Shown one piece after another: positions 8,454-38,444 of a DNA stretch of 64,000 nt. Positions within the stretch are counted from its first letter, which is position 1, and every line of letters starts with the position of its first letter. The stretch is taken from contig CALIMJ010000006.1 of NCBI GenBank assembly GCA_938028835.1, positions 68,759-132,758 of the forward strand, read 5' to 3'. The stretch comes from an uncultured bacterium. GTDB taxonomy: Bacteria > Sysuimicrobiota > Sysuimicrobiia > Sysuimicrobiales > Sysuimicrobiaceae. Under the pieces are notes generated by a model, which ran no database searches, was not told the origin of the DNA, and saw only the letters and a list, made by a program, of their open reading frames with translations. A program made the translations under genes and the position numbers.

Positions 8454-8454
8454 G

Positions 8455-14334: not shown

Positions 14335-14359
14335 GGGTTAGGCTCCGCCCGGGCGGGGT

Positions 14360-15016: not shown

Positions 15017-15035
15017 GGACCGCCACCCCGTGCCC

Positions 15036-18778: not shown

Positions 18779-19026
18779 GGGCGGTGCGGGCCGGCCGGGC
18801 CTTCGCTCCTGGGCCGCCGCAGCCGCACGTACCGCTCCCAGGCCACCACCAGCTCCACCTCACCCGCGGCGGTGGCCCGCTGCCGGACCACCCGCTGTAC
18901 CCCGCCCGCGGGTGCGCTCTGCGGCGGAGACGTGGTGCGGATCCGGGGCGTCCACCCGGCCGCCCGCAGCTCCTCTAGGGCCTCCTCCAGGGGCAAAGCG
19001 ACCACGTCCGGCGGGGAACCCATCAC
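18775..19026 (-). CDS. Small PASTA-like protein between frr and uppS
   Basis: An 83-aa protein. The start is GTG 19026 (GTGA overlap with the frr stop); an ATG follows immediately. It begins with a PASTA-like unit: LPLEEALEELRAAGW, a variable turn, then VVRQRATAAGEVELVVA, matching the beta-alpha-beta pattern by which PASTA domains usually sense peptidoglycan. It has no signal peptide or membrane helix, so it would be cytosolic, unlike kinase-linked PASTA domains. The same small-gene position, with overlaps on both sides, is known from several Firmicutes. Function unknown; translational coupling suggests a link to ribosome recycling or to lipid-carrier synthesis. Confidence 0.75.
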   Translation of the reverse strand: MMGSPPDVVALPLEEALEELRAAGWTPRIRTTSPPQSAPAGGVQRVVRQRATAAGEVELVVAWERYVRLRRPRSEGPAGPHRP

Positions 19027-21797: not shown

Positions 21798-21888
21798 GGA
21801 ACACCCTCCCGGTTGCCCTCCGCCCGCCCTCCCCGTGGGGCACCGGAACCCCGGACCGCGCGGCCCGGGAGGCGGGCGTGCAAAAGTA

Positions 21889-21923
21889 CGCGGGCCCGCC
21901 GGGCCCGCGCCCGCCGTAGTATA
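21889..21923 (-). promoter_or_regulatory. Perfect 9-bp hairpin and TATACT box upstream of rpsB
   Basis: CGCGGGCCC (21889-21897) and GGGCCCGCG (21901-21909) form a perfect 9-base-pair stem with a three-base loop. On the minus strand TACTTTTGC follows, so it could end the hslVU transcript. A TATACT hexamer (21923-21918) lies just upstream, with no good -35 box. If it is the rpsB promoter, the hairpin would sit at the very 5' end of the rpsB mRNA. Confidence 0.45.
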
Positions 21924-22015
21924 CCACAGCGCCGACGCTCCGGAGGTCCCTCAGGCCACCCGGGGCCTCCTCGAAGGACCTCACCCTGGGGAACGGCCGA
22001 GGGACTCCGGGGAGT

Positions 22016-23413
22016 CTAGAGGATGTACCGGCTGAGGTCGTGGTCCCGCAGGAAGGGCTCCAGGCGCCGGCGCACGTACGCCTCGTCGATCACCACCCGA
22101 CGGGGTCCTTCCGGAGCCTCGAAGCTGATCTCCTCCGTCACCCGCTCCAGCACCGTGTGCAGGCGACGCGCGCCGATGTCCTCGGTGCGCTCGTTGATCT
22201 CGTGGGCGATGCGGGCGATGGCCTCCACCCCGTCGGGGGTGAACACCACGTCCACCCCTTCGGTGGCCAGAAGGGCCTGCACCTGCTTGGTCAGGCTGTT
22301 CTCCGGCTCCGTGAGGATCCGCACGAAGTCGTGGGGGGTGAGCCGTTCCAGCTCCACCCGGATGGGCAGCCGCCCCTGCAGCTCGGGGATGAGGTCGGAG
22401 GGTTTGCTGGAGTGGAAGGCGCCCGCGCACAGGAACAGGATGTGGTCCGTCCGGACAGGGCCGTACCGGGTGGTCACCGTAGACCCTTCCACGATGGGCA
22501 GCAGGTCCCGCTGCACGCCCTCCCGGGAAACGTCCGGGCCCACGGACGGCCCGGAGCCCGCGATCTTGTCGATCTCGTCGATGAACACGATCCCGAGTTC
22601 CTCCGCCCGGCGGACCCCCTCCCGCTGCGCCTCCTCATGGTCGATGAGCTTGCTGGCCTCCTCCTGTGCGAGGATCCGCAGCCCCTCCGCCACCGTCACC
22701 CGCCGGCGCTTCCGCCGCTTGGGCAGCAGGCCGCCCAGCAGGTCCTGCAGGTTGATCCCCATCTCCTCCACGCCCTGCGCGCCGATCAACTCGATGGTGG
22801 GGAAGGTCTGCTCCTCGACCTCCACCTCCACCACCTCGCGGTCCAGTTCCCCGGCCTCCAGGCGGGGCCGAAGCAGCCGGCGCCGTTCCTCCACCTCCTG
22901 TTGCTCCCGCCCGTAGCTGCTCTCGGGAACCGTGGGGGTGCGGCCGAGTAGGGCCTCCAGGGGGTTCGAAAAAGCCGGCCGCGGCGGGTCGGGGACCAGG
23001 ATCCGGAGCATGCGCTCCCGGGCCAGACGCTCCGCCTCGGGCTGAACGGCCCGCATGCGCTCCTGCTTCACCATCTGCACGGAGACCTCCACCAGGTCGC
23101 GGATCATGGAGTCCACGTCGCGCCCCACGTACCCGACCTCGGTGAACTTGGTGGCCTCCACCTTCACGAAGGGCGCGTCCACCAGGCGGGCCACCCGACG
23201 GGCGATCTCCGTCTTGCCCACCCCCGTGGGCCCGATCATGAGGATGTTCTTGGGGATCACGTCCCGGCGCAGGGGCTCGGGCAGCAGGCTGCGGCGGTAC
23301 CGGTTCCGCAGCGCCACCGCCACGGCCCGCTTGGCGGCCTGCTGGCCCACGATGTGCTTATCGAGCTCCGCGACGATGCGACGCGGTGTGAGCTCCTCCA
23401 TCCGGAAACCCAT
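22016..23413 (-). CDS. hslU: HslU (ClpY) ATP-dependent unfoldase
   Basis: AAA+ ring that unfolds substrates for the HslV peptidase. The 465-aa product has Walker [10 protein letters not shown] near residue 62, the GYVGRD pore motif, a variable I-domain (about 110-240), Walker [12 protein letters not shown], sensor 1 and the conserved C-terminal DLSRYIL tail that docks into HslV. The ATG start at 23413 lies 24 nt after the hslV stop. Full length and apparently intact. Confidence 0.97.
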
Positions 23414-23437
23414 CCCTCGACCCCCGACCGACGCCGA

Positions 23438-23968
23438 CTACAGGGTCTCCACCACGATCCGGTCGTTGGTGTACACGCAGATCTCTGCGGCGATCCGCAG
23501 GGCCTCCCGTACCACCGCCTCCACGGGCAGATCCGTGTGCCGCAGCAGCGCCCGGGCAGCGGCCAGGGCGTAGGGGCCGCCGCTTCCCACCCCCGCCACC
23601 CCGTCATCCGGCTCCACCACGTCCCCGCTGCCCGAAAGGATCAACAGGTGCTCCCGGTTGCAAACGACCAGCACCGCCTCCAGACGCCGCAGGGTGCGGT
23701 CGGTGCGCCAGTCCTTGGCCAGGGCTACCGCAGCCCGCGGCAGGCTTCCGCGGTGCTCGCCCAGCTTGGCCTCGAACCGCTCGAACAGGGTGAGCCCGTC
23801 CGCCGCGCTGCCCGCGAACCCCGCCAACACGTCGTCCCCGATGCGGCGGACCTTGCTGGCGCCGTGCTTGAGCACCGTCTGCCCCAGGGTGACCTGGCCG
23901 TCGGACCCCATGGCCGCCCGCCCGTCCCGCAACACCGCCAGCACCGTGGTGTGCGACGTCCGCGCCAT
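23438..23968 (-). CDS. hslV: HslV (ClpQ/CodW-type) peptidase
   Basis: Threonine- or serine-type peptidase of the HslUV protease. The 176-aa product keeps the body motifs GDGQVTLG-like (SDGQVTLG), [17 protein letters not shown]-like ([12 protein letters not shown]) and EICVYTND. The ATG start at 23968 gives MARTSHTTV, so five residues sit between the initiator Met and the Thr-Thr that normally begins mature HslV. This resembles the extended Bacillus CodW. An upstream in-frame start would add only 13 unrelated residues. It lies between xerC and hslU, as in Firmicutes. Confidence 0.95.
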
Positions 23969-24066
23969 CTCCACCTGGCAGTCTACCGCGCGGTGGGTCC
24001 ACGCCACCAGGAGCGCCCTGCCGCAGGGTTGCGCCAGTCTGCCCGAATCCCCAAAGTGGCGGATCG

Positions 24067-24954
24067 TCAGGCCCGCGGGTGGGCGCGGTCGTAGACCTCC
24101 TTGAGCCGCGCCCGGGTGGTGTGGGTGTACACCTGGGTGGTCTGGAGGCTCCGGTGGCCCAGCAGCTCCTGCACCGAGCGCAGGTCCGCACCGCCATCCA
24201 GCAGGTGGGTGGCGAAGGTGTGCCGCAGGGTGTGGGGGGTCGCGCGCACCGCGCCCAGGGACGCCCGCACGTACCGGGCCACCACCAGCTGGACTCCCCG
24301 GGCAGAAAGGGGCCGACCGCGGTGGTTGACAAACAGGGTTTCCACTCCCGGCCTGGCCAGGCGGGGCCTACCCTGCTGCAGGTAGGCGTCCAGGGCCGAC
24401 CGGGCGGCCCGCGTCAGCAGCACCAACCGTTCCCGGTTCCCCTTCCCCACCACCCGCACCTCCCGCCCGAAGCGCACGTCCTCGGTCCGCAGCGCCAACG
24501 CCTCCCGCAGCCGCAGTCCTGAACCGTACAGCAGCTCCAGCAGCGCCCGGTCGCGCAGGCCCAGGGGCGTGGCCGTGTCCGGGGCTTCCAGCAGTGCTCG
24601 GACCTGCGTGAGGCTCAGGTAGTTGGGCAGCCGACGACCCCGGCGGGGAGCTCGAAGCCCGCGGAAGGGGTTGGCGGGAGCGCGCCCGGTGCGCACCAGG
24701 AACCGGAACAGGCTCCGGAGGGCGCTGAGCCGCCGGGCCACCGTGGCCCGCGAGCGGGAGGCGGACAGCCGCACCAGGTACCGTCGAGCCCGGGTCACGT
24801 TCACCTGGGACCAGTCGGTGACCCCCTCCACCGCCAGGAAGTCCAAAAAGTGAGCCACATCGCGGGCGTACGCGGCCAGGGTGTGGGGCGAAGCCCCCCG
24901 CTCCGCCCGCAGCACGCGCAGGAAGCCCCGGACGTCCCGTAAAAGCGGCCTCAA
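24067..24954 (-). CDS. xerC: Tyrosine recombinase XerC/CodV type
   Basis: Site-specific recombinase that resolves chromosome dimers. The 295-aa product has an N-terminal SAM-like core-binding domain ([25 protein letters not shown]). The catalytic set is complete: Arg in GSGLRLRE, Lys in [21 protein letters not shown] (HxxR), [14 protein letters not shown] (H and the nucleophile Tyr). The start is TTG 24954, sharing TTGA with the topA stop. The topA-xerC-hslV-hslU order supports a housekeeping role rather than a mobile-element integrase. Confidence 0.94.
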
Positions 24955-27056
24955 CGCGCCGCCACGGGCTCCGGCACCTGCTGGGTCTCGGTGGCCCTGC
25001 ACGAGGTGTTCACGCACCGGTAGTACGTCTCCCCCCGCCGGGACCGACGCAGCGCCATGGGGTAGCCGCAGCGGCTGCAGCGCCGGTCCGTGGGCCGGTC
25101 CCACGAGGTGAAGTCGCAGGACGGGTAGGTGGCACACCCGTAGAAGATGCGGCCCCGACGGGACCGGCGTTCCACCACCTCGCCTCCGCACTTCGGGCAG
25201 GCCACTCCGATGCCCACGGGCCGCGTGTAGGTGCACGCCGGGTAGCCGCTGCACGCGATGAAGGCACCGAACCGGCCCTGTTTGCGTACCAGCTCCCGGC
25301 CGCAGGCCGGGCACGCCTCCCCCGTGGGTTCCGGCTTCGCGTCCACCTCCTCGATCAACGCCTCGGCCCGGCGGAGGTCCCGCTCGAACGGCTCGTAGAA
25401 CTCCCGCACCACGGCCACCCAGTCGGCCTGGCCCTCCTCCACCCGGTCCAGGTCCTCCTCCAGGTGCGCGGTGAACCCCACGTCCACGATGTCTGGGAAG
25501 TGCTCCAGGAGCAGGTCGTTCACCAGCCGTCCCAGCTCCGTGGGCACCAGCCGCCGGTCCACCACCCGCACGTAGCCGCGTTTCTTGATGGTCTCCAGGG
25601 TGGGCGCGTAGGTGGACGGCCGACCGATCCCCTTTTCCTCCAGGGCCCGCACGAGGGTGGCCTCCGTGTAGCGGGGCGGCGGCTGCGTGAAGTGCTGCTG
25701 CGGGATCAGTTCCACCAGCCGCAGCGGTTCCCCGGGCACCAGTTCCGGCAGCCAGCCCTCCGCCAGCTCCTCGCCGTCTGCGGACAGCTCCCGGTACACC
25801 ACGAGGAAGCCCGGGAACTTGACCCGCTGTCCGGTGGCCCGCAGGAGGTAGTCACCCGCCGCCACGTCCACCGCCAGCGTGTCCAGCACCGCGGAGCTCA
25901 TCTGGCTCGCCACGAACCGCTCCCAGATGAGCCGGTACAGCCTGTACTGGTCCGGCCGCAGGTACGGCTTCACCTTCTCCGGCGTGCGGAAGACCGACGT
26001 AGGACGGATCGCCTCGTGGGCGTCCTGGGCGCCCCGGCGGGTGGCATAACGGCGCGGCTGCGGCGGCACGTACGCCTCCCCCCACCGCTCCCGAACGAAC
26101 GCGCGCGCCTCTTCCTGAGCGGACGAAGCCACCCGCACCGAGTCGGTGCGCATGTACGTGATCAACCCCACGGTACCTTCGTCCCCCACGTCCAGCCCCT
26201 CGTACAGCTGCTGCGCCAGGGACATGGTCCGGGAGGCGGAGTAGCCCAGCCGACGGTTGGCCTCCTGCTGCAGGGTGCTGGTGATGAACGGCGGGGCGGG
26301 GTGCCGTTGTTGATCCCGGCGGCGCACCTCCGCCACCCGGTAGTCCGCGGCCTCCAGTTCCCGCAGGACACGCCGGGCCTCCTCCTCGTGGGGGAGTTCC
26401 ACCTTGGCGTCGCCCCGGGAGACCAGCCGGGCGTCGAAGAGGGTGTCCTCGCCCTGGCGGCTGAGGCGCGCGGTGATGGTCCAGTACTCCTGCGGGGTGA
26501 AGGCCTCGATCTCTCGCTCGCGGTCGCACACCAGGCGCAGGGCCACGGACTGCACCCGCCCCGCGCTCAACCCGCCCCGCACCTTCCGCCACAGAAGCGG
26601 GCTCAGCTTGTAGCCCACCAGTCGGTCCAGCACCCGCCGCGCCTGCTGCGCCGCCACCCGGTTCAGGTCGATGTCCCGCGGGTGCTGCAGGGCGCGGCGC
26701 ACCGCTTCCCGGGTCACCTCGTGGAACTCGATGCGCCGGATGTTGGGGTTCACCCCGTTCAAAAGGGTCTGCAGGTGCCAGGAGATGGCCTCCCCCTCGC
26801 GGTCGGGGTCGGGGGCCAGGTACACGGTGTCGGCGTCCTTCGCCGCCTCCCGCAGCTCCTTCAGGATGGGACCCTTGCCCTTGATCACGATGTAATGGGG
26901 CGCGAACCCGTTGTCCACGTCCACGCCCAGCTTCGACTTGGGCAGGTCGCGCACGTGCCCCATGGACGCCAGCACCCGGAAACGGCGGTCCAGCAGCTTC
27001 TTCAGGGTGCGCGCCTTCGTGGGCGACTCGACGATCACCAGGTTCTTCTTCGACAC
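24951..27056 (-). CDS. topA: DNA topoisomerase I
   Basis: Type IA topoisomerase that relaxes negative supercoils. The 701-aa product has the Toprim start LVIVESPTKA, the acidic triad in DPDREGEA, the catalytic Tyr in LITYMRTDSVRV and three C-terminal CxxC...CxxxxxC-type zinc ribbons (about residues 570-695). I place the start at GTG 27056 behind GGCGGGGA, giving SKKNLVIVESPTKA; an ATG 39 bases upstream lacks a ribosome site. A pair of GTCAACGG repeats lies in the 141-nt upstream gap. Confidence 0.95.
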   Translation of the reverse strand: MSKKNLVIVESPTKARTLKKLLDRRFRVLASMGHVRDLPKSKLGVDVDNGFAPHYIVIKGKGPILKELREAAKDADTVYLAPDPDREGEAISWHLQTLLNGVNPNIRRIEFHEVTREAVRRALQHPRDIDLNRVAAQQARRVLDRLVGYKLSPLLWRKVRGGLSAGRVQSVALRLVCDREREIEAFTPQEYWTITARLSRQGEDTLFDARLVSRGDAKVELPHEEEARRVLRELEAADYRVAEVRRRDQQRHPAPPFITSTLQQEANRRLGYSASRTMSLAQQLYEGLDVGDEGTVGLITYMRTDSVRVASSAQEEARAFVRERWGEAYVPPQPRRYATRRGAQDAHEAIRPTSVFRTPEKVKPYLRPDQYRLYRLIWERFVASQMSSAVLDTLAVDVAAGDYLLRATGQRVKFPGFLVVYRELSADGEELAEGWLPELVPGEPLRLVELIPQQHFTQPPPRYTEATLVRALEEKGIGRPSTYAPTLETIKKRGYVRVVDRRLVPTELGRLVNDLLLEHFPDIVDVGFTAHLEEDLDRVEEGQADWVAVVREFYEPFERDLRRAEALIEEVDAKPEPTGEACPACGRELVRKQGRFGAFIACSGYPACTYTRPVGIGVACPKCGGEVVERRSRRGRIFYGCATYPSCDFTSWDRPTDRRCSRCGYPMALRRSRRGETYYRCVNTSCRATETQQVPEPVAAR

Positions 27057-27108
27057 CGCGATCCCCGCCGCGTAACCCCCTTCGGTCGGCCCCATGGTAG
27101 CACAGGGC

Positions 27109-27138
27109 GTCAACGGCACTCTGGGGAGGAGTCAACGG
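27109..27138. repeat. Two GTCAACGG direct repeats 22 bp apart upstream of topA
   Basis: GTCAACGG occurs at 27109-27116 and again at 27131-27138, a 22-bp period that puts both copies on the same helix face, 53-82 bases upstream of the proposed topA start. No matching -10 box follows, so they read better as a possible operator than as promoter elements. This is a short repeat and may be chance. Confidence 0.3.
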
Positions 27139-27197
27139 ACCCGGTGGGGCGCGAGCGTGCGCAGCTCCCACCCTTCGTTCGACTGCGTCCCGGGTGC

Positions 27198-27941
27198 CTA
27201 GCGGAAGAGGTCGCGCTCTGGAGGCCGCACCAGCGCCCGGGCGCTGCCCTCGCCCCAGGCGCGCCACCCCCTCACCAGGACGAGGGGACGGTTCTCGTCC
27301 GCCTGGCCCATCAGCAGGGTGGCCGCGGACGCAAGCTCATCCGCGACCGCCTCCACGGAGCTGGTGAGGATGTACCCGTACAGGTCGCGCCGCCCCCGGT
27401 GGTCCTGCAACGGCTGCAGGCCCGCGAGTCCCACGCACACCCCCACCGCGCCCTCCCGGTGCGCCCGGCCGTGGGTGTCGGCCACCACCACGCCCACCTG
27501 ACAGCCGAAGCGCGCCCGTAGGGCCTCCCGCAGGCGCCGCGCGGATGCGTCGGGGTCGGCGGGCAGCAGAACCGCACACCCCAGGCCTGCGTTGGAACGG
27601 TCCACGCCGCCGTTGGCGCATACGAATCCGAGCCGGTGCCGTGTGATCAGCAGACCCGGACGTGCCCGCACGACCTCCACAGACTCCCGGAGCACCAGCT
27701 CTACCAGCCGCGGGTCCTTGCCCGTTTCTTGCGCGAGGCGCACGGCCGCCGCAGAAGGCTGCACCTCCTCCAGGCGCACCAGCCGCCCCTCCGCCACCGA
27801 GACCACCTTGTGGGCCACCACCAGGACGTCTCCGTCCTGCGGCCGCAGCCCCGACCGCTCCAGAGCCTCGGACGCCCACGCGCCCAGGTCCTGTCCCGGC
27901 CGCAGCCGGCCACACGGCACCGCCTTCATCCAGATCTCCAC
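27198..27941 (-). CDS. cofE: Coenzyme F420-0:L-glutamate ligase
   Basis: Adds gamma-linked glutamates to F420-0 using GTP. The 247-aa product has the CofE hallmarks: GDVLVVAHKVVSVAEGR near residue 40, LITRHRLGFVCANGGVDRSNAG, VVVADTHGRAHREGAVGVCVG, and the C-terminal SSVEAVADELASAATLLMGQADE. The size matches stand-alone archaeal CofE rather than the two-domain actinobacterial FbiB. The start is GTG 27941 with GGAGG upstream; an ATG at codon 5 is possible. It is divergent from capA. No other F420 gene lies in this window. Confidence 0.92.
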   Translation of the reverse strand: MEIWMKAVPCGRLRPGQDLGAWASEALERSGLRPQDGDVLVVAHKVVSVAEGRLVRLEEVQPSAAAVRLAQETGKDPRLVELVLRESVEVVRARPGLLITRHRLGFVCANGGVDRSNAGLGCAVLLPADPDASARRLREALRARFGCQVGVVVADTHGRAHREGAVGVCVGLAGLQPLQDHRGRRDLYGYILTSSVEAVADELASAATLLMGQADENRPLVLVRGWRAWGEGSARALVRPPERDLFR

Positions 27942-28024
27942 GGCCCTCCCCGCCCGTGCGTGGTATCCTGCGCAACGCAGGGTGCTACGGCGCAGAGGCC
28001 CGACTTCCCTCCGCGGGGGGCAGC

Positions 28025-28990
28025 ATGCGGCTGGCGTTTTTAGGGGACGTGATGCTGGGCCGGCTGGTGAACCGCGCCCTAGAGGCCCGCCCGCCCACGG
28101 ACCCCTGGGGAGACGTGCTGCCGGTGCTGCGGGGCACCGACGGCGTGGTGTGCAACCTGGAGTGCGTCCTGTCCGACCGCGGGGCCCCCTGGCCCGGCAA
28201 GCTGTTCACGTTCCGTTCGGATGCCCGGAACGTGCGGGTGCTCGAGGTCGGGGGCGTGCGGGCGGTGAGCCTCGCCAACAACCACGTACTGGACTTCGGG
28301 GAGGACGCCCTGGCGGACTGCCTGCAGGTGCTGGACGCCGCAGGCATCGCCCACGCGGGCGCGGGCAGGGACGCGGAGGAGGCCCAGCGTCCGGCCCGGT
28401 GGACGTGCGGACGGACTCGCGTGGGCCTGGTCGCGTTCACCGACAACGAGCCCGAGTGGGAAGCGGCGCCCGGCCGCCCCGGGGTGTTCTACGCGCCCGT
28501 AGACCCCGAGGATCCCCGCTTCCAGCGGGTGGTGGAGCTCACCCGCCAGCTGACGGCGGAAGTGGATGTGGCGGTGGTCTCCGCCCACTGGGGCCCCAAC
28601 TGGGGCCGCCGGCCCCTGCCGGAGCACCGGGAGGCCGCACGCTGGCTGGCCCAGGCGGGCGCCCGGGTGGTGTGGGGCCACAGCGCCCACATCGTCCGGG
28701 GCGTGGAGTTCGTGGACGGATGCGTGGTGCTCTATAGCTGCGGGGACTTCGTGGACGACTACGCGGTGGACGAGGTGGAGCGGAACGACTGGTCCTTTGT
28801 CTTCCTCCTGGAGTGGAAGCCGGGCGGCGTGGAGGTGGAGCTGGTGCCCACCACCATCCGACACTTCCGGGCCGGGCTGGCGCACGGCTGGGAGCGGGAG
28901 GCCATCTGTCAGCGCATGCGGGAGCTGTGCGCGGAGCTCGGCACCGAGGCGCAGCCCAGCGAGGCCGGGCTGCGGCTGCGGCCCGCCTGA
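28025..28990 (+). CDS. CapA-family metallophosphatase-like protein
   Basis: The product is 321 aa with an ATG start at 28025. It has the PGA_cap/CapA fold: FLGDVMLGR at the start, NLECVLS, VRAVSLANNHVLDFGEDAL, VSAHWGPNWGRRP (His-rich metal site), HSAHIVRGVEF and YSCGDFVDDY. CapA relatives take part in poly-gamma-glutamate work or act as general metallophosphoesterases. This protein has no signal peptide or membrane anchor, so a soluble, cytosolic role is more likely. Its 83-bp divergent promoter region is shared with cofE, a second gene concerned with gamma-glutamate chemistry, but that link is inference. Confidence 0.88.
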   Translation: MRLAFLGDVMLGRLVNRALEARPPTDPWGDVLPVLRGTDGVVCNLECVLSDRGAPWPGKLFTFRSDARNVRVLEVGGVRAVSLANNHVLDFGEDALADCLQVLDAAGIAHAGAGRDAEEAQRPARWTCGRTRVGLVAFTDNEPEWEAAPGRPGVFYAPVDPEDPRFQRVVELTRQLTAEVDVAVVSAHWGPNWGRRPLPEHREAARWLAQAGARVVWGHSAHIVRGVEFVDGCVVLYSCGDFVDDYAVDEVERNDWSFVFLLEWKPGGVEVELVPTTIRHFRAGLAHGWEREAICQRMRELCAELGTEAQPSEAGLRLRPA

Positions 28991-29017
28991 GGCACCGCGT
29001 CCTGGAAGAGCCCGACC

Positions 29018-29033
29018 GTCCGGTGCTCCGGAC
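29018..29033. terminator. Short hairpin between convergent genes
   Basis: GTCCGG (29018-29023) and CCGGAC (29028-29033) pair around TGCT, between the capA-like stop (28990) and the DCC-family stop (29060), which converge. There is no T-run on either strand, so bidirectional termination is only a suggestion. Confidence 0.3.
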
Positions 29034-29059
29034 CGGCCCGGGAGCTCGCCGCGGGGCGG

Positions 29060-29470
29060 TCAACGCTGCGGGCGGCACGAGCCCCCGCGCACGAAGCGCC
29101 CCAGCATGGACCGGTGGCGGGCCACCCACCCGTAGGCGGCGTCCGTCACCCGCGGGAAGGCGTCTGCCAGCGCCGCCAAGGGGGCGCCGAAGGGCAGCAA
29201 GCGTAGAAGGGGTGCTACCGCGCGGCCGCCGGAGGCTACCCGGCCCTGGGGATCCACCAGGTGCCAGGACGCCATCCGCACCTCCTGCGGCAGCCCCGCC
29301 AGCCACCGGGCCGCCTCGGGATCCTGCAGCGCGCACGGGCGGACCCGACCTCCGCGGTCCCAACGCACCACCCTCCCCACCGCCCACCGGCAGAACCCGC
29401 AGTCCGCATCGTACAGCAGCACGTGCACGCCGGAAGACGCGCCCTCTGGCGGCACCGCTCCGGGGGTCAT
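29060..29470 (-). CDS. DCC-family (DUF393) thioredoxin-like protein
   Basis: The product is 136 aa. The DxDCxxC motif (LLYDADCGFCRWAV) and the later GGRAVAPLLRLLPFG block define the DCC1/DUF393 family. These are predicted thiol-disulfide oxidoreductases; substrates are unknown. The ATG at 29470 overlaps the stop of the FadR-type regulator gene (ATGA), so the two are co-translated. It is the last gene of the amine-catabolism island and need not be part of that pathway. Confidence 0.88.
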   Translation of the reverse strand: MTPGAVPPEGASSGVHVLLYDADCGFCRWAVGRVVRWDRGGRVRPCALQDPEAARWLAGLPQEVRMASWHLVDPQGRVASGGRAVAPLLRLLPFGAPLAALADAFPRVTDAAYGWVARHRSMLGRFVRGGSCRPQR

Positions 29471-30270
29471 CGCGCCGGCACCTCCACCTCGGGCACCAGC
29501 CCGTGCACGATGTTCTCCGTGGCCCGGATGTGATCCAGCATCAGCTGGCGCGCCTGCGCGGGGCGGTGCTCACGGATGGCCTCCAGGATCCGCCAGTGGT
29601 ACTCCGTGGAGTGGCGCAACACCTCCTCCGAGTGGTGCACGATGAGGTCCAGGATCTCCGTGAGGGACGTCTGCAGCCGCACCACGCTGTCCAGAAGCAG
29701 CGGGCTCTTCGCCGCCGCCGCGATCCCCACGTGGAACCGGGCGTCGTAGGCGCGGTACACGGTAAAGTTGCGCTCCGCGCCCCGCATGCTGGACAGCAGC
29801 TGCGCGAGCTCGCGGATCTCCACGGCGGACGCCCGCTCCGCGGCCAGCTCCGCGGCCGCGGGCTCCACCGCCCGGCGGAAGTCCAGGATGGCGGGGATGT
29901 CGTGCCGGAGGCGGTTCAGCACCGCCCGCCGTTCCCGCGCCCGTGGGACCTCCGGCCACCGGGCCACGAAGGTCCCGCCGGTGCGCCCGCGGCGGACCTC
30001 CAGGTAGCCCGCGTCCGCCAGGATCCGCAGGGCGCCCCGCAGGGTGGATCGGCTGATCCCCAGCCGCCGGGCCAGCTCCCGCTCGGGCGGGAGCTGGTCG
30101 CCCACCTTGACCAGGCGCGCCTTGATCACCCCCGCGATGCGCTCCACCGTCTCCTCCACCACGTTCCGGGAACGCACGGGCGCGAACACCGCGCTCAGGA
30201 GCCGGTCTACGGTCCCCTCGGAGGCGACCCCCCTCGCCCCGCGGTCCCCCTTTTCGGGTTGCCCTTTCAA
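29467..30270 (-). CDS. FadR/GntR-type transcriptional regulator
   Basis: The product is 267 aa if it starts at TTG 30270, which shares TTGA with the stop of the permease remnant; GTG 30189 is an alternative that trims 27 residues. A GntR winged helix (GDQLPPERELARRLGISRSTLRGALRILADAGYLEVRRGRTGGTFV) is followed by an all-alpha FadR C-terminal domain with Asp/His metal-site residues (DARFHVGIA, HWRILEAIREH). It probably senses a carboxylate or amine metabolite and controls the neighbouring island. Its operator is not recognised. Confidence 0.9.
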   Translation of the reverse strand: MKGQPEKGDRGARGVASEGTVDRLLSAVFAPVRSRNVVEETVERIAGVIKARLVKVGDQLPPERELARRLGISRSTLRGALRILADAGYLEVRRGRTGGTFVARWPEVPRARERRAVLNRLRHDIPAILDFRRAVEPAAAELAAERASAVEIRELAQLLSSMRGAERNFTVYRAYDARFHVGIAAAAKSPLLLDSVVRLQTSLTEILDLIVHHSEEVLRHSTEYHWRILEAIREHRPAQARQLMLDHIRATENIVHGLVPEVEVPAR

Positions 30271-30536
30271 CGCAACACCACGGGCACGCGGAGCACCAGG
30301 CGGGCGGCGGCGACTGCCAGCGCGATCACCGCCACCAGGAGGGTGGACAGGGCCGCCGCCCCGCTCAGCTTGCCGTCGGTGGTCAGGGTGAGGACCGCGG
30401 TGGCCGGGAGCTCCAGCCCCGGGGCGATGAGGAAGATCACCGCGCTCAGGGTCACCATGCTTCGCACGAAGCTGTACACCGCGGAGGAGAAGAAGGCAAC
30501 CCGCAGTAGGGGGAACACCACCTGCACGAAGGTGCG
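30267..30536 (-). pseudogene. C-terminal remnant of an FbpB/PhnU-type ABC transporter permease
   Basis: About 88 codons remain of a permease that normally exceeds 500 residues. They match the last transmembrane part of iron(III)/aminoethylphosphonate-type permeases: FVQVVFPLLRVAFFSSAVYSF, then VRSMVTLSAVIFLIAPG, ending in an alternating Ala/Leu/Val helix and the basic stop LRVPVVLR. It continues in the same reading frame directly after the stop of the truncated binding-protein gene, so a single deletion seems to have removed everything between. The remaining 3' end still overlaps the regulator start by TTGA, preserving the old operon junction. Confidence 0.82.
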
Positions 30537-30908
30537 CTAACCCTTCGGGTCGCGGAACTGCCGGAGGATCTTGTAGGCCCCTTTGGGGACGTATGGCTCC
30601 AGGATCCCCTCCCGCATGAGGGGGAGGGTGGCGGTGGCTGCCACGCCCCACAGCACGTCCGCTTGTGGGTTCCCCTTCTCCGCCAGCACCCGCGCGGCCA
30701 GCTCTCCCGTGGACAGCCGCAGCACCCGGATGTCCAGGTCCGGCAGGTCCTGACGGGCCACCTTCAGGTATTCGGCGATCTCGTCGTTCTCCAGGGCGGA
30801 GTACACCACTACCGGTGTCGCCGCGGGTGCTGCCAGACCTGCCAGCAACACCGCACACGCCGCGAGCAGCCACACGGCCATCCGCCGCATCCCTTGGTCC
30901 TTCCTCAT
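30537..30908 (-). pseudogene. N-terminal remnant of an ABC-transporter substrate-binding protein
   Basis: 123 codons from ATG 30908 (GGGGGGTGA upstream) to TAG 30537; intact relatives are about 340 residues. It has a normal signal peptide (residues 1-30) followed by the FbpA/PhnS-type opening TPVVVYSALENDEIAEYLK, LRLSTGELAARVLAEKGNPQADVLWG and EPYVPKGAY. The reading then stops at RQFRDPKG, just where homologues enter the second lobe. The fold cannot bind ligand. It follows the SDR gene by 38 nt and so belonged to the same operon. Confidence 0.85.
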
Positions 30909-30946
30909 CCCGGTCACCCCCCTTGGGATTTGGGTTCCCCCCGTCC

Positions 30947-31720
30947 TCACTCGGGGGTCAGGTAGGCGGCGGTGATCCCGCCGTCCACCACGAACACCGC
31001 GCCGTTCACGTACGAGGACTCGTCGCTGGCTAGAAACAGCGCCGCTTGGGCGATCTCCTCCGCGCGGGCGAACCGCCCCACGGGGATGTGGACCAACCGC
31101 CGCTGGCGCCGGTCCGGGTCCGACAGCAGCTCCGCCAGCAACGGGGTCTCCACCGGGCCCGGGCACAGGGCGTTGGCCCGGATGTTCTTCCGGGCGAACT
31201 CCACCGCGATCTCCCGGGTCAGGGCCAACACCCCGCCCTTGCTGGCCGTGTACGCCACCTGGGAAACCGCAGACCCCATCAGGGCCACGAAGGAGGCGGT
31301 GTTGATCACCGAGCCCCCACCGGCCCGCAGGAGAGCGGGGATCCCGTACTTGCAGCCCAGAAACACCCCTTTCAGGTTCACGTTCAGCACCAGGTCCCAG
31401 ACCCGTTCGTCGGTGTCCAGCACGGACCCGTCCTCCGGGTGGAAGATGCCCGCGTTGTTGAACAGAACGTCCAGCCGTCCGTAGGTCCTCTCCGCGCAGG
31501 CCACCATGGCGCGCACGTCCTCCGTCCGGGTGACGTCCGCCCGGAAAAAGGTGGCCTCCCCCCCCGCGGCGCGGATGTCCGCCACCGTCCGCTCGCCCGC
31601 GTCCGGGTTCACGTCCACCACCACGACCCTCGCGCCTTCCCGGGCGAACAGCTTCGCAGATTCCCGGCCGATCCCGCTGCCCCCGCCGGTGATCAGGGCC
31701 ACCTTGTCCTGCAGCCGCAT
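30947..31720 (-). CDS. SDR-family NAD(P)-dependent oxidoreductase
   Basis: The product is 257 aa with an ATG start at 31720. Classical short-chain dehydrogenase: TGGGSGIG cofactor loop near residue 11, an acidic residue ending beta-2 (VVDVNPD) favouring NAD, NNAG, Ser in TASF, YTASKG catalytic Tyr/Lys, and CPGPVETPL. Substrate is not set by sequence. Its place between the PuuD-like hydrolase and the (ruined) transporter suggests oxidation of an alcohol group on a gamma-glutamylated intermediate, for example a gamma-glutamyl amino-alcohol; this is inference. Confidence 0.92.
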   Translation of the reverse strand: MRLQDKVALITGGGSGIGRESAKLFAREGARVVVVDVNPDAGERTVADIRAAGGEATFFRADVTRTEDVRAMVACAERTYGRLDVLFNNAGIFHPEDGSVLDTDERVWDLVLNVNLKGVFLGCKYGIPALLRAGGGSVINTASFVALMGSAVSQVAYTASKGGVLALTREIAVEFARKNIRANALCPGPVETPLLAELLSDPDRRQRRLVHIPVGRFARAEEIAQAALFLASDESSYVNGAVFVVDGGITAAYLTPE

Positions 31721-31743
31721 ATCCGGTTCCCTCCTCGTTGCGT

Positions 31744-32454
31744 CTACCGCTCCGCCCTCCGACGGGCCGCGGCCTGGACCAACGCTTCAAACAGCCTCCG
31801 GTGCACCGGGCTGTCCAGGGAAAGCTCCGGGTGCCACTGCACGCCCACGGCCCACGACTCCCGCTGGCACTCCACCGCCTCCACCGTGCCGTCCGGCGCC
31901 CACGCCACCGCGCGCCACCCGGGGGCCACCCGCCGCACCGCCTGGTGGTGCCACGACCGCACCGACACCTCGCGTTCTCCGAGGATGCCCGCCAGGCGGC
32001 TTCCGGGGTCCACGCGGACCGGGTGGTCTGTGGGGACCCGAGGGGGAAGCCGGTGCCGGACCGGCGCGTCCTCGTCCTCCGGCAGGTGCGGGACCAGGTC
32101 CCCACCCCACGCCACGTTGAGCACCTGCGATCCCCGGCAGATCCCCAAGACCGGCACGTTCCCATCCACCACGGCCCGGGCCAGGTGCAGTTCGAAGCGG
32201 TCCCGTTCGGGGTCCACCAGGTACAGGGTGGGGTGGTTCTGCCCGCCGTAGTAGGCGGGGTCGATGTCGCCTCCCCCGGCAAGGATCAGGCCGTCCACCA
32301 CCTCCAGCACCCGCTCGGGCCGCTCCTCCCCCGGTGGGAGGAGGAGGGGCACGCCACCTGCCTGCCGCACCGCGTCCACGTACGCTGCGGGCAGGCAGAA
32401 CCGGCCCTGTTCGTTGCGGCCGTACGTGGTGATCCCGATCCTCGGCGCCTCCAC
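31744..32454 (-). CDS. Gamma-glutamyl-amine hydrolase, PuuD-like class-I amidotransferase
   Basis: The product is 236 aa, GTG start. Peptidase C26 family: the opening RIGITTYG, LILAGGGDIDPAYYG, the nucleophile Cys in GICRGSQVLNVA, WHHQAV, and the catalytic His/Glu in WHPE. PuuD-type enzymes release glutamate from gamma-glutamyl intermediates at the end of amine degradation. It follows the glutamine-synthetase-like gene by 7 nt, so ligase and hydrolase form a matched pair. The exact acyl product is unknown. Confidence 0.92.
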   Translation of the reverse strand: MEAPRIGITTYGRNEQGRFCLPAAYVDAVRQAGGVPLLLPPGEERPERVLEVVDGLILAGGGDIDPAYYGGQNHPTLYLVDPERDRFELHLARAVVDGNVPVLGICRGSQVLNVAWGGDLVPHLPEDEDAPVRHRLPPRVPTDHPVRVDPGSRLAGILGEREVSVRSWHHQAVRRVAPGWRAVAWAPDGTVEAVECQRESWAVGVQWHPELSLDSPVHRRLFEALVQAAARRRAER

Positions 32455-32461
32455 GGCCGCC

Positions 32462-33853
32462 TCACGCCCGCTCCAGGTACCGCGCCCGCTCCCAGTCCGT
32501 CACCACCTGGTCGAACTTGAGCTGCTCGGTGCGGAAGAAGTGCGTGTAGTGGTCCACCACCGCGTCGCCGAAGACCTGCCGGGCCCACGAGCTGCGGTCG
32601 AGTCGCTCCACCGCCTCGGGCAGGGACCGCGGAACCTGAGGCAGGTCCGCGGCCGCATAGGCGTTGCCCTCGAACGGGCCAGGCGGATCGATCCGGTTCT
32701 GGATCCCGTCCAGCCCCGCGGCCAGAGTGGCCGCGAAAGCCAGGTAGGGGTTGGCGTCCGCACCGGGAACCCGGCACTCGATGCGCAGGGAGGGCCCATG
32801 CCCGACCACCCGGAACCCCGCGGTGCGGTTGTCGTAGCTCCAGGCGATCCGGGTGGGCGCGAAGGAGCCCGCCACGTATCGCTTGTAGGAGGTCGGGTAG
32901 GGGGCGTAGAAGGCGGTGATCTCCGCTAGGTGCGCCATCCACCCGCCGAGGAACCAGCGGAACAGGGGCGACACGTGCAGGGGGCCCAGGGCCTCCTCCC
33001 CCGGGAACAAGGGTCTGCCCTGCGCGTCCCACAGGCTCGCGTGCAGGTGCATGCTGGAGCCCGCGTAGCGCTCGTCCCACTTGGCCATGAAGGTCACCGC
33101 CACATGGTTCTGCCAGGCGATCTCCTTGGCCGCGTGCTTGAACAGGGTGTGACGGTCCGCGGTCTCCAGGAAGTCCGCGTAGCGCAGGTTGATCTCCTGC
33201 TGTCCGGGGCCCCACTCGCCCTTGGAGAACTCCACGGGGATCCCGGACCGCTCCAGGTGGCGGCGGAGGGCCCCCACGAGGAACTCCTCCTTGGTGCCCT
33301 GCAGGATGTGGTAGTCCTCGATGTAGCGGCCGAAGGGCTCCAGGCCCACGTAGCGCTTGCGCGCCGCCTCCTCGTAGGAGTCCCGCAGGATGTAGAACTC
33401 CAGCTCCGACCCGCCCATGGCCACGTACCCTAGGGCCCGGGCCCGGTCCATCTGCCGGCGCAGGACGGTGCGGGGCGCCACTTCCACCAGCACGTCCCGT
33501 TCCTCCTCGTAGACGTCACACAGGACCACCGCGCTCGCGTCCAACCAGGAGGCCACGCGCAGGGTCCGGAAGTCCGGAACGAGGCGGATGTCCCCGTACC
33601 CCGCCTCCCAGCTCGTGAAGGCGTAGCCGGGGACCGGGTCCATCTCCATGTCGCACGCCAGCAGGTAGTCGCAGGCGTGCATGCCGTCGGCGGCCACGTG
33701 GTCCAGGAAGAACGGGCCGCTGACCCGCTTGCCCACCAGCCGGCCGTACAGGTCCGGGAACACCGTGAGCACGGTGTCCACCCGCCCTGCCTCCACCAGC
33801 TCCCGCAACTCGTCCAACCCGATCTGGCCTGGGACGTTCTGCCCGTATCCCAC
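32462..33853 (-). CDS. Glutamine-synthetase-family gamma-glutamyl-amine ligase
   Basis: The product is 463 aa with a GTG start behind GGAGGAGGTG. The GS fold is complete: the N-terminal beta-grasp, GSELEFYIL metal site, GPGQQEINLRYADFLE, HVAVTFMAKW and SSMHLHASLW, and RIECRVPGADANPYLAFAA. It lacks the adenylylation-loop Tyr pattern of housekeeping GlnA and resembles PuuA/GlnA3-type ligases that couple glutamate to amines. Adjacent genes encode a PuuD-like hydrolase, an SDR, an ALDH and a TRAP importer. True substrate not deducible. Confidence 0.9.
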   Translation of the reverse strand: MGYGQNVPGQIGLDELRELVEAGRVDTVLTVFPDLYGRLVGKRVSGPFFLDHVAADGMHACDYLLACDMEMDPVPGYAFTSWEAGYGDIRLVPDFRTLRVASWLDASAVVLCDVYEEERDVLVEVAPRTVLRRQMDRARALGYVAMGGSELEFYILRDSYEEAARKRYVGLEPFGRYIEDYHILQGTKEEFLVGALRRHLERSGIPVEFSKGEWGPGQQEINLRYADFLETADRHTLFKHAAKEIAWQNHVAVTFMAKWDERYAGSSMHLHASLWDAQGRPLFPGEEALGPLHVSPLFRWFLGGWMAHLAEITAFYAPYPTSYKRYVAGSFAPTRIAWSYDNRTAGFRVVGHGPSLRIECRVPGADANPYLAFAATLAAGLDGIQNRIDPPGPFEGNAYAAADLPQVPRSLPEAVERLDRSSWARQVFGDAVVDHYTHFFRTEQLKFDQVVTDWERARYLERA

Positions 33854-33874
33854 CCGCTCACCTCCTCCACGCGG

Positions 33875-35206
33875 CTAGCCCCCGCGCCGGAAGTACAGCG
33901 CCGGCAGCCAGGTGGCAATCTGCGGAAACAGCATGACGATGACCAACCCCAGGATCATCACCAGGACGAAGGGGGTGATGGACCGGTAGATGTCCGCCAG
34001 GGTGATCTCTGGCGGCGCCATCGCCCGCATGAGGAACAGGTTGTAGCCGAACGGGGGCGTCATGTACGCGATCTGGCAGGTGATGGTGTACAGCACCCCG
34101 TACCACACCAGGTCGAACCCCAGCTTCTTCACCAGGGGCACGTACAGGGGGGCTACGATGACGAGCATGGCGGTGTCGTCCAGGAAGGTCCCCATGAGCA
34201 GGAAGGAGGCCTGCATCATGGCGATCACCGCCCAGGGCGACAGGTGCCACTGCCCCAGGAACAGCTCCTCCAGGGCCCGGCTCGCGCCGAGCCCGTCGAA
34301 CACCGCAGAGAACAGCAAGGCGGCCTGGATGATCCACATGAACACGCAGCTCACGCCCAGGGTCTTGCGGGTGGCCTCCACCAGCGCCCGCCAGGTGAGC
34401 CGCCGCCGGATCGCCGCCGCCAGGGTGGTGGCCAGCATCCCCACCGCGGACGATTCCACGAGGCTGGTGACCCCCGCCAGGAACAGCCCCGTCATGGACA
34501 CGAAGATCACGAGGGGAATGATCCCCGCCCGGAGCAGCCGCAGTTTCTCGCCCCACGTGATCCGCTCCAGTTCCTCCTTCGGCAGGGGCGGGCCCAGCTT
34601 GGGTTGCAGCCAGCACCGGACCAGCACGTAGAGGATGAACAGCCCGCCCAGCAGCAGCCCGGGCAGGATCCCCGCGAACCACAGCTGCCCCACGGGAACC
34701 CGGGCGATCATGCCGTACAGCACGAGGACCACACTGGGCGGGATCATGATCCCGAGGGTGCTGCCTGCCTGGATCACGCCCGTGATCATGACCTTGTCGT
34801 AGCCGCGCCGCAGCATCTCCGGCAGGGCGACGGTGGCGCCGATGGCCAGCCCCGCCACGCTGAGTCCGTTGATGGCCGCGATCAGGACCATCATGAGGAT
34901 GGTCCCCACCGCCAGCCCCCCCCGCAGGGGCCCGGACCACACGTGGAACATGTAGTACAGGTCGTTGGCGATCCCCGTCTCCGCGAACATGTAGCCCATG
35001 AACACGAACATGGGCAGGGTAAGCAGCGGGTACCAGTTCAGGGTGGTGATGGCGGCGTCGAAGGGCATCTCCGCGGTCTCCGGGCCCCACAGGCCGACCG
35101 CGGCCGCCACGCCCACGAACCCGATGACCGCGTACATCCGCTGGCCGGTGGCCAGCAGGGTCATCATGGAGAAGAACATGAGGAGGGCAATGGCGTTGTG
35201 GCTCAC
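33875..35206 (-). CDS. dctM: TRAP transporter large permease (DctM type)
   Basis: The product is 443 aa with about 12 hydrophobic segments and family motifs: LPMFVFMGYMFAETGIANDLY, GLSVAGLAIGATVALPEM, QAGSTLGIMIPPSVVLVLYG, GTFLDDTAMLVIVAPLYVPLVKKLGFDLVWYGVLY and TPPFGYNLFLMRA. The GTG start shares GTGA with the dctQ stop. This is the ion-coupled translocation subunit of the importer encoded with the amine-catabolism genes. Confidence 0.94.
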   Translation of the reverse strand: MSHNAIALLMFFSMMTLLATGQRMYAVIGFVGVAAAVGLWGPETAEMPFDAAITTLNWYPLLTLPMFVFMGYMFAETGIANDLYYMFHVWSGPLRGGLAVGTILMMVLIAAINGLSVAGLAIGATVALPEMLRRGYDKVMITGVIQAGSTLGIMIPPSVVLVLYGMIARVPVGQLWFAGILPGLLLGGLFILYVLVRCWLQPKLGPPLPKEELERITWGEKLRLLRAGIIPLVIFVSMTGLFLAGVTSLVESSAVGMLATTLAAAIRRRLTWRALVEATRKTLGVSCVFMWIIQAALLFSAVFDGLGASRALEELFLGQWHLSPWAVIAMMQASFLLMGTFLDDTAMLVIVAPLYVPLVKKLGFDLVWYGVLYTITCQIAYMTPPFGYNLFLMRAMAPPEITLADIYRSITPFVLVMILGLVIVMLFPQIATWLPALYFRRGG

Positions 35207-35772
35207 TCCATCGCCCTCCCCAGCAGGCGTGCCAGGTCCTTGAGGAAGATGGCCAGCTGCTGCAGGAGCATGAGCCCGATCCCCGCGGTCATGATGAGCT
35301 TGATGGGAGCCATGGGCGGTGCCCAGGGCGTGTAGTTCACCTGGTTGTTCTCGATCGCCCAGATGCTGCTACGGATGCCCCCGAAGAAGAGGAAACCGAG
35401 ATACACCAGCGCCAGGGGTGCGGTGATACAGTCCATGAGGAGTTTGCCGCGGGGACTGAGCCGGCTGTAGAAGAGATCCATCCGCACGTGGACGCCGTCC
35501 TGTTCAGACAGGGCGCCCCCCAAAAGGTAGTAGGCGGACATGGTGAACTGGGCCAGCTCCACGCTCCAGATGTGGGACGTCCCGAAGGCCAACCGCGCCA
35601 CGGAGGCTTCCAGGAGGATGGCCGCCAGGACGAAGGTGAGGACCATGGCCAGCACCCCCACGGCCCGGCCCAGGCGCTCCACCAGCCGCACATAGACCAC
35701 CACGGGCCGGGGCATCCGGGGAACGGCCCGGGCCACGGGCTCCACCACGGGATCCTCGGAAGGCTGGCTCAT
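35203..35772 (-). CDS. dctQ: TRAP transporter small permease (DctQ type)
   Basis: The product is 189 aa with four hydrophobic helices after a Pro-rich soluble N-terminus of about 28 residues. SVELAQFTMSAYYLLGGALSEQDGVHVRMDLFY is the DctQ hallmark. The ATG start at 35772 lies 30 nt after the dctP stop, and the stop overlaps the dctM start. It is the membrane partner that stabilises the large permease. Confidence 0.93.
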   Translation of the reverse strand: MSQPSEDPVVEPVARAVPRMPRPVVVYVRLVERLGRAVGVLAMVLTFVLAAILLEASVARLAFGTSHIWSVELAQFTMSAYYLLGGALSEQDGVHVRMDLFYSRLSPRGKLLMDCITAPLALVYLGFLFFGGIRSSIWAIENNQVNYTPWAPPMAPIKLIMTAGIGLMLLQQLAIFLKDLARLLGRAME

Positions 35773-35802
35773 CGCCCTGCAGGTTTTTGTGCCGCGGACT
35801 CC

Positions 35803-36894
35803 TCACCCGCACCGGTAGGGCGGGCCGGCCTTGCGCATGACCTCCGCGTACTCCCGCAGGATCTTCACCACCTGGGCGGTCCGCGGGCTGCGCTTGGCCA
35901 CTTCGTCCCAGAACTTGTACGCCTCCTTCCGGACCGTCTCCCACTCCTTCTCCGGGATCGAAGTGAGCTTCAACTTGCCGCCCTTCACCCGGTAGTGGGC
36001 CTCCCCCCACCAGTACCAGTGCAGGCGGTAGTAGTGGGAGGAGTCGATGCACAGCCGGAACAGGGTCTGCAGGTGACGGGGCAGGCGCTCCCAGCTGCGG
36101 GTGTTGACCAGGTACGAGCCGACCCAGGCCCCACAGATGGGGTTCGTGAGGTAGTACTTGGTCACGTCGGCCCAGCCCACCGTGTAGACCTCCGTGATCC
36201 CGCTCCACGCCACGCCGTCCAGCTCCCCGGTCTGGATGGCCATCTGCACGTCCGCGTAGGGCAGCGAGACGGGAACCACGCCGAACCGCCGCATGAACCG
36301 GCCCCCGGTGGGGAACATGTAGACGCGAATCCCCTTCAGATCCTTGAGGGAGCGGATGGGCTTGGTGGTGGCGAAGTTGCACGGGTCCCAGGAACCCGCA
36401 CTGAGCCACGTGACGTTGGGGACCTTCGCGTAGGCCTCCCGCCAGATCTTGTCCAGGCCGTACCAGTGGAACAGGGTGGCCACGTCCAGGGAGTACTCGG
36501 TGGCGAAGGGGAAGTACGCACCGAACACCGAGACGTCCACCGGCGACTGGGCGGAGTCCTCGTCCGTCTGGACCGCGTCCAGCACCCCCCGTTGCAGGGC
36601 CTTGATGAGCTCCCCCTGGGGGACCAGCTGGTCCGCGTAGTACAGCTCGATCACCATCTCCCCGTTGGCCGCGAGGTTGAAGGCGTCGATGGACGGCTTG
36701 ATGACATGCTGGCCCAGGGTGGTGCCCGCGTACGTCTGCATGCGCCACTTGATCCTGGGCTGCCGTCGCTCCTGGGCCCGCACCTCCCGGGGGTCGATCC
36801 CCATGCGGGCGAGCGCGGCCGCCGCGATGGTGGCGGCCATGGACGAGGCTCCCCGCTTGAGGAACTGCCTGCGGCTCCATCCCTTGCCCTCCAT
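35803..36894 (-). CDS. dctP: TRAP transporter substrate-binding protein (DctP type), Tat-exported
   Basis: The product is 363 aa with ATG 36894 behind GGGAGGGGGA. A twin-arginine signal (SRRQFLKRG, residues 7-15) predicts export in folded form. The mature part keeps DctP landmarks: QTDEDSAQSPVDVSVFGAYFPF, LKDLKGIRVY, ADVQMAIQTGELDGVAWSG and the C-terminal helix. In most DctP proteins this site reads KGLKxR, with the Arg clamping a carboxylate; the matching position here appears to be Tyr192. A ligand other than a simple carboxylate is therefore plausible, which suits the amine-degradation neighbours. Confidence 0.93.
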   Translation of the reverse strand: MEGKGWSRRQFLKRGASSMAATIAAAALARMGIDPREVRAQERRQPRIKWRMQTYAGTTLGQHVIKPSIDAFNLAANGEMVIELYYADQLVPQGELIKALQRGVLDAVQTDEDSAQSPVDVSVFGAYFPFATEYSLDVATLFHWYGLDKIWREAYAKVPNVTWLSAGSWDPCNFATTKPIRSLKDLKGIRVYMFPTGGRFMRRFGVVPVSLPYADVQMAIQTGELDGVAWSGITEVYTVGWADVTKYYLTNPICGAWVGSYLVNTRSWERLPRHLQTLFRLCIDSSHYYRLHWYWWGEAHYRVKGGKLKLTSIPEKEWETVRKEAYKFWDEVAKRSPRTAQVVKILREYAEVMRKAGPPYRCG

Positions 36895-36932
36895 GCGTCC
36901 CCCTCCCTTCTCCGTGGTTTGCCCGGCTCGTT

Positions 36933-38390
36933 TCAAGGCCGCGTATCCACGAACACGCTCTTCCACTCGCTGTAGTGGTCCAGGACCGCCAATCCCAGCT
37001 CGCGCCCCACCCCGCTCTCCTTCACGCCCCCGAAGGGAGCCTCCAGGTGCACGCTGTGGCCGGAGTTCACCGACAGCACCCCGGTCTCCACCGCCCGGGC
37101 CACCCGCAGGGCGCGGCCGAGATCCCGCGTCCACACGGAGCCGGAGAGGCCGTAGCGGCTGTCGTTGGCCAGGGCCACGGCCTCCTCCTCGGTGTCGAAG
37201 GGCATGGCGCAGATCACAGGTCCGAAGATCTCCTCCTGCATGACCCGCATGGCCGGCCGGACGTCCACAAAGATGGCCGGGCGCAGGTAGGCGCCGCGGC
37301 CCAAGGGATCGTCGTGCGGCACGTCTCCCCCGCACAGAAGACGCGCCCCCTCCTCCTGGCCCACCCTCACGTACCCACGGACCCGCTCGCGGTGCGCGAG
37401 GCTCACGAGGGGACCCATCTCCGTCTGCTCGTCCAGGGGAGCGCCCAGCCGGATCCGCTGGACCAAGTCCGCCAGCCGGGTCACAAAGGTGTCGAAGATC
37501 CGGCGCTCCACGAACAGCCGGCTGCGGGCGCAGCAGTCCTGACCCGCGTTGCCCAGGGCGCTCCACGCCGCCGAAGGCACCGCCCGCTCCAGGTCCGCGT
37601 CCGCGAACACGATGTTGGCGGACTTCCCTCCCAACTCCAGGGTCACCCGCTTGATCCCGTCCGCGCTCAACCGCAGGATCTCGCGACCCACCTCCGTGGA
37701 GCCCGTGAAGGACACCTTGCGGACCAAGGGGTGGCGCACCAGCGCCTCCCCCACCACCCCGCCCGGACCCGGTAACACGTTCACCACACCGGGCGGGAGG
37801 TCGGCTTCCGCGGCCAGTTCTGCAAGCCGCAGGGCCGTGAGGGGGGTCTGCGTGGCGGGCTTGATCACCACTGTGTTGCCCATGGCGAGGGCAGGCGCCA
37901 GCTTCCAGGCGGTGATGGCGATGGGGAAGTTCCACGGCACGATCAGCGCGCAGACGCCGATGGGTTCGCGGAAGGTCAGGCTGACGCCCGGCGCGGCCAC
38001 CGGTACCGTGTGGCCGCCCACCTTGTTCACCGCTCCCGCGTAGTACTCAAAGCAGTCCGCGGCCAGCTGGACTTCCTCCCGGGCTTCCCGGATGGGCTTG
38101 CCCACGTTGCGGCTCTCGGTGCGGGCCAGCTCCTCCGCGTGCTGTCGGATGAGGTCCGCGACGCGGAGGAGGAGTCGGCCTCGCTCACGGGTGTTCAGCC
38201 GGCGCCAGGGGCCCGCGGTGAACGCGCGGTGGGCGGCAGCGACCGCCCGTTCCACATCCTCGGGCCCCGCGCTGGCCACCTCCGCGAAGGCCTCCTGCGT
38301 GGCGGGATCCACCAGTGTGTAGATCTGTCCGGAGGCCGCGGGAACCGACTCACCGGAAATCCACAGCGGGTAACGCGTAGGTCCCCCCAT
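36933..38390 (-). CDS. NAD(P)-dependent aldehyde dehydrogenase
   Basis: The product is 485 aa, ATG start 38390 with GGAGG upstream. All ALDH motifs are present: the VPWNFPIAI cofactor site, FTGSTEVG, catalytic Glu in ELGGKSANIV, catalytic Cys in GQDCCARSR, EEIFGPV and PFGGVKESGVGRE. It resembles gamma-glutamyl-gamma-aminobutyraldehyde or betaine-aldehyde dehydrogenases. First gene of the island: ALDH, TRAP, ligase, hydrolase, SDR. A TTGACA box lies just upstream. Confidence 0.93.
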   Translation of the reverse strand: MGGPTRYPLWISGESVPAASGQIYTLVDPATQEAFAEVASAGPEDVERAVAAAHRAFTAGPWRRLNTRERGRLLLRVADLIRQHAEELARTESRNVGKPIREAREEVQLAADCFEYYAGAVNKVGGHTVPVAAPGVSLTFREPIGVCALIVPWNFPIAITAWKLAPALAMGNTVVIKPATQTPLTALRLAELAAEADLPPGVVNVLPGPGGVVGEALVRHPLVRKVSFTGSTEVGREILRLSADGIKRVTLELGGKSANIVFADADLERAVPSAAWSALGNAGQDCCARSRLFVERRIFDTFVTRLADLVQRIRLGAPLDEQTEMGPLVSLAHRERVRGYVRVGQEEGARLLCGGDVPHDDPLGRGAYLRPAIFVDVRPAMRVMQEEIFGPVICAMPFDTEEEAVALANDSRYGLSGSVWTRDLGRALRVARAVETGVLSVNSGHSVHLEAPFGGVKESGVGRELGLAVLDHYSEWKSVFVDTRP

Positions 38391-38413: not shown

Positions 38414-38444
38414 AGTTTTGGCCCTTTGCACCGAGGCTTGTCAA
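38414..38444 (-). promoter_or_regulatory. Candidate promoter of the amine-catabolism operon
   Basis: TTGACA (38444-38439) sits at the very end of dprA, including its stop codon, about 50 bases before the ALDH start. An A/T-rich stretch unusual for this genome (AAAACTAAACC on minus, around 38419-38409) follows at 17-19 bases and could hold the -10 box, although no hexamer matches well. Confidence 0.45.

Follow-up and report, generated by a model that had tools for sequence, protein, structure and literature searches.

How did the beginning of a solute-binding-protein gene and the end of a permease gene come to share one reading frame in a bacterial operon, and what has become of the importer to which they belonged? 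We addressed this question in a 64,000-nucleotide stretch of DNA (the window, G000:C6:68759-132758) of a 2.16-Mb draft genome from an uncultured lineage. The results show that the structure is a real, recent and ordinary deletion scar, left by an ordinary kind of gene loss: very probably, one 3,138-bp deletion in the lineage of this genome joined both ends of an ABC importer operon.

Results

Two truncated genes joined at a stop codon

Translation of the minus strand from 30908 to 30267 gives 123 residues (MRKDQGMRR...RQFRDPKG), a TAG stop, 89 residues (RTFVQVVFPLL...RVPVVLR) and a TGA stop, all in a single frame. This confirms an earlier sequence-only reading of the locus, in which the first 123 codons of a binding protein end at TAG 30537 (30539-30537) and the same frame then continues as the end of a permease. 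That reading counted 88 permease codons where there are 89, and its label of FbpB-type fits only loosely, as the permease is closer to the PhnU2/AfuB type.

In profile searches, the solute-binding-protein (SBP) remnant covers positions 6-113 of the 334 of TIGR03261 PhnS2 (98.9 bits), and the permease remnant covers positions 453-528 of the 546 of TIGR03262 PhnU2 (45.5 bits). A Pfam search returned a weak permease match for the permease remnant and no match for the SBP remnant. Within the permease remnant, an in-frame GTG at 30527 opens an ORF of 86 aa. The positions of the remnants and of the surrounding genes are collected in Table 1.

Table 1 Features of the scar and of the operon around it, in window positions (G003, sister species; L042, its aligned region).
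Feature	Position	Strand	Remarks
GntR/FCD-family regulator	29467..30195	-	Intact, downstream of the scar; annotated core
Permease 3' remnant	30267..30536	-	Last 89 codons and TGA (30269-30267); matches G003 permease residues 454-542
Deletion junction	30537..30538	.	3,138 bp of G003 (L042:9722-12859) absent between both bases
Junction-made TAG stop	30537..30539	-	TA from SBP codon 124 (TAC, Tyr in G003), G from permease codon 453 (GTG, Val in G003)
SBP 5' remnant	30540..30908	-	123 codons, signal peptide and start of the N-lobe; gap-free against G003 SBP codons 1-123
SDR-family oxidoreductase	30947..31720	-	Intact, directly upstream of the scar
Gamma-glutamyl hydrolase (Peptidase C26, PuuD-like)	31744..32454	-	Intact
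Glutamine-synthetase-like ligase (gamma-glutamyl-amine synthetase candidate)	32462..33853	-	Intact
TRAP large permease DctM	33875..35206	-	Intact, also intact in G003
TRAP small permease DctQ	35203..35772	-	Intact, also in G003
TRAP binding protein DctP	35803..36882	-	Intact, also in G003
Aldehyde dehydrogenase	36933..38390	-	First gene of the operon

The intact importer in a sister species

Both remnants were found, 3,138 bp apart, on one contig of a congeneric species (G003; JAVKKH010000015.1, 'MAG: Armatimonadota bacterium isolate QQ_201912_bins_187'). Their nucleotide identities are 89% (query 1-371) and 93% (372-642), and they align without gaps to the ends of intact genes. At this locus the sister species carries, in order, an SBP of 336 aa, an ATPase of 354 aa (ABC_tran + TOBE_2) and a two-domain permease of 542 aa. 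The comparison of sister genomes that the sequence-only reading had proposed as a way to find the full transporter therefore locates it at the same place. The pieces that it had listed as missing (the C-lobe of the binding protein, most of the permease and, probably, an ATPase gene) all lie in the extra 3,138 bp of the sister species, which hold the ATPase gene in full, SBP codons 124-336 (213 codons) and codons 1-453 of the permease.

When window positions 20786-37560 are aligned with the corresponding region of the sister species (L042), just two blocks result: 20786-30537 pairs with 1-9721, and 30538-37560 pairs with 12860-19901. The two genomes are collinear on both sides of the scar, with one break at which the window is exactly 3,138 bp shorter. 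The match of the remnants together with this collinearity is far beyond chance. Since 3,138 is a multiple of three, the frames of the SBP and permease remnants are in register; and since the TAG straddles the junction (TA + G), the stop was made by the joining itself, with no later mutation. The deletion is seen in one genome of its species (n=1), and a search of two other congeners (G001, G002) did not find a counterpart of the scar, the contigs of G002 breaking on both sides of the locus.

The operon and its TRAP importer

As had been proposed, the scar lies within an otherwise intact catabolic operon, with intact genes on either side. The operon (29467-38390) forms an island between the topA side (topA 24951-27119) and dprA (38441-39538); in G004 and G005, topA and dprA are about 2.5 kb apart and the operon is absent between them, while both G002 contigs end here. 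Relative to the sister species, most operon genes (30947-36882) have dS values of 0.22-0.42, as compared with 0.13-0.19 for the GntR gene and the core genes that flank the operon. The higher dS suggests an island with a different history or recombination. The frame of the GntR-family regulator may start slightly upstream of its annotated core, at a TTG overlapping the permease stop (30267-30271), and the regulator and the permease, before its loss, may have been translationally coupled.

The sequence-only reading had also suggested that the TRAP system may have replaced the ABC importer. The sister species does not bear this out: the same DctP, DctQ and DctM genes are intact and collinear in both genomes, and in the sister species they stand beside the intact ABC genes. 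Because that species keeps both importers side by side, the TRAP system predates the loss and was not acquired as a replacement.

A related proposal would add to the deletion a reason why it was tolerated: the TRAP importer took over the ABC substrate, so that the ABC genes became dispensable and were deleted. The TRAP genes lie in the same operon, intact and strongly conserved (dN/dS of 0.04 for DctM and DctP), and the catabolic genes are still intact after the loss. However, we regard such a takeover as rather unlikely, given the two importers side by side in the sister species and given that their substrates may equally well differ: relatives of the ABC importer are described as carriers of phosphorylated or phosphonate compounds (PMC8427247, PMC8316502, PMC4546632). 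The intact TRAP importer and the catabolic genes of the operon would be the presumed remaining route, and it is only a guess that TRAP meets the need and so made the loss tolerable.

A deletion in the genome or in its assembly

Much less probable is an assembly error: the importer would still be complete in the species, and 3.1 kb would have been skipped, or strains merged, during assembly. We consider this very unlikely. The genome is indeed a draft of 52 contigs, 94.7% complete and, like that of the sister species, probably metagenome-derived. On the other hand, the contig spans 214 kb and has the junction about 99 kb inside it, and N runs are absent. No other contig holds the missing DNA, and a k-mer assembler would have had no repeat common to both breakpoints to collapse. 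The longest words shared by the 200-bp stretches around the breakpoints in the sister species are 7 bp (direct) and 9 bp (inverted), random pairs averaging 8.7. This lack of a breakpoint repeat argues against a repeat-driven misassembly.

That the missing genes had moved elsewhere was rejected as well: a search of the rest of the genome for the lost segment found no close copy, only ABC paralogues with identities of 66-71% over any substantial stretch. From these comparisons we infer that the deletion is real.

Mechanism, direction and age of the loss

In the mechanism that we propose, a single 3,138-bp deletion took the last 213 codons of the SBP gene, all of the ATPase gene and, from the permease gene, the first 453 codons; the ends were probably joined without homology, as the absence of breakpoint repeats and the presence of a Ku gene suggest. 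Relative to the sequence of the sister species, the junction has no microhomology. The Ku homologue (G000:C8:151205-151738; 171.8 bits, cut-off 25) makes non-homologous end joining plausible in this lineage and may have taken part in this event. Direct or inverted repeats were rejected as the cause of the deletion, none exceeding chance; a 16-nt, 81% inverted match near both ends (L042:9704-9719 / 12830-12845) has an exact core no longer than that of random pairs.

To place the direction of the event we considered 80 loci with SBP relatives, one of them that of the sister species and the others from several phyla. An ATPase homologue accompanies the SBP in 72 and a permease homologue in 71, and the order SBP-ATPase-permease recurs in many of these loci, across several phyla. 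Since this three-gene order is widespread, the direction is a loss in the window, the intact arrangement being most probably ancestral. The reverse, an insertion in the sister species, was rejected: inserted DNA would need to have made two truncated genes whole with perfect precision, and the order of the intact genes occurs widely.

No indels are seen in the remnants, whose dN/dS values against the sister species are 0.18 (permease) and 0.13 (SBP), with 0.04-0.16 for the intact operon genes. The SBP remnant has 11 substitutions, eight of them within its first 19 residues, the signal-peptide region. Both remnants together show 17.5 nonsynonymous changes, as opposed to the roughly 60 estimated had they been unconstrained since the species split. 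The absence of indels and the low dN/dS indicate a loss much younger than the split; a rough estimate from these figures puts the probable age of the deletion below about one third of this branch. Outgroups, at only about 45% identity, were mostly uninformative for polarising the substitutions.

The same values bear on the idea that the remnants are functional small genes, a 123-aa truncated SBP acting as sensor or decoy and an 86-89-aa membrane peptide starting at GTG 30527. Both frames are still open and their dN/dS is low, but a recent deletion explains the low dN/dS. Moreover, the SBP remnant has neither the second lobe nor the region that aligns with the phosphate-binding S-G-T of AfuA-type proteins, the permease remnant amounts to no more than the end of one of the two transmembrane halves, and no relative with the same short form was found among 41 genomes. 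We therefore hold this idea to be extremely improbable. Neither remnant should be able to bind solute, hydrolyse ATP or form a pore, and both appear non-functional. Least likely of all is that both products, an SBP head of 123 residues and a membrane tail of 86, continue to be produced and play some new regulatory part in the gamma-glutamyl/TRAP operon.

Family of the lost importer

In the sister species, SBP, ATPase and a fused two-domain permease lie in one operon, as in PhnS2-PhnT2-PhnU2, and these families (TIGR03261/03265/03262) are their best matches, over full length. The scores are below the curated cut-offs (score/cut-off in bits: PhnS2 343.3/392.75, PhnT2 427.6/457.7, PhnU2 455.7/593.25), and for this reason no substrate was assigned. 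Families of Fe3+ permeases and binding proteins, as in the FbpABC ferric importer, are not the best match of any component.

The closest solved binding proteins are AfuA (PDB 4r72-4r75; E 1e-43) and P5PA (6wce; 8e-38), with ferric-binding proteins such as HitA scoring far below both. Their S-G-T stretch (phosphate-binding in AfuA-type proteins) and Q-Y-x-x-S stretch align in the SBP of the sister species, and the window has lost this entire part of the protein. Sequence similarity places the lost importer in the PhnS2/T2/U2 - AfuABC group, with only a loose likeness to FbpB. As to known substrates, P5PA binds pyridoxal phosphate (PMC8427247), AepSTU and AepXVW of Pseudomonas putida carry 2-aminoethylphosphonate (PMC8316502), and AfuABC imports phosphorylated sugars (PMC4546632).

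The operon itself points elsewhere. By analogy with Puu-type pathway logic, the glutamine-synthetase-like ligase, the PuuD-like hydrolase, the SDR and the aldehyde dehydrogenase suggest gamma-glutamylation of an amine, which argues against a simple phosphonate reading. No phosphonate-degradation gene was found among the operon genes examined. At several loci in Burkholderiales, only a few kb separate homologues of the ABC genes from genes of the glutamine-synthetase-like and PuuD-like kinds (L069, L074, L077, L081, L084, L087). There is thus a hint that the importer group may serve amine gamma-glutamylation rather than the phosphonate of its name.

Discussion

The loss of an importer at this locus sets apart two sister species of an uncultured lineage; the case is clean and can be roughly dated. 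Beside a catabolic operon that is otherwise common to both, only one of the two retains the complete uptake system, which offers a natural comparison for the cargo of the importer. In other respects, the scar is an ordinary gene loss without wider consequence.

The lost importer resembles the PhnS2/PhnT2/PhnU2 systems, putative 2-aminoethylphosphonate importers to which AepSTU and AepXVW are functionally comparable, in its three components and in their full-length best family matches; it differs from them in its sub-cut-off scores and in the gamma-glutamylation-type gene set of its operon. With AfuABC and P5PAB, the hexose-phosphate and pyridoxal-phosphate importers of Actinobacillus, it shares the closest solved binding proteins and both aligned stretches, whereas its phylum and its operon context are different.

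Deletion pseudogenes can arise by illegitimate (homology-independent) recombination in bacterial genomes. The scar resembles them in its two truncated genes, its repeat-free junction and the intact remainder of its operon; a close relative has the intact, putatively ancestral genes between collinear flanks, and the missing DNA has no close copy elsewhere in the genome assembly. It departs from them only in a length that is a multiple of three and in a junction codon that happens to be a stop.
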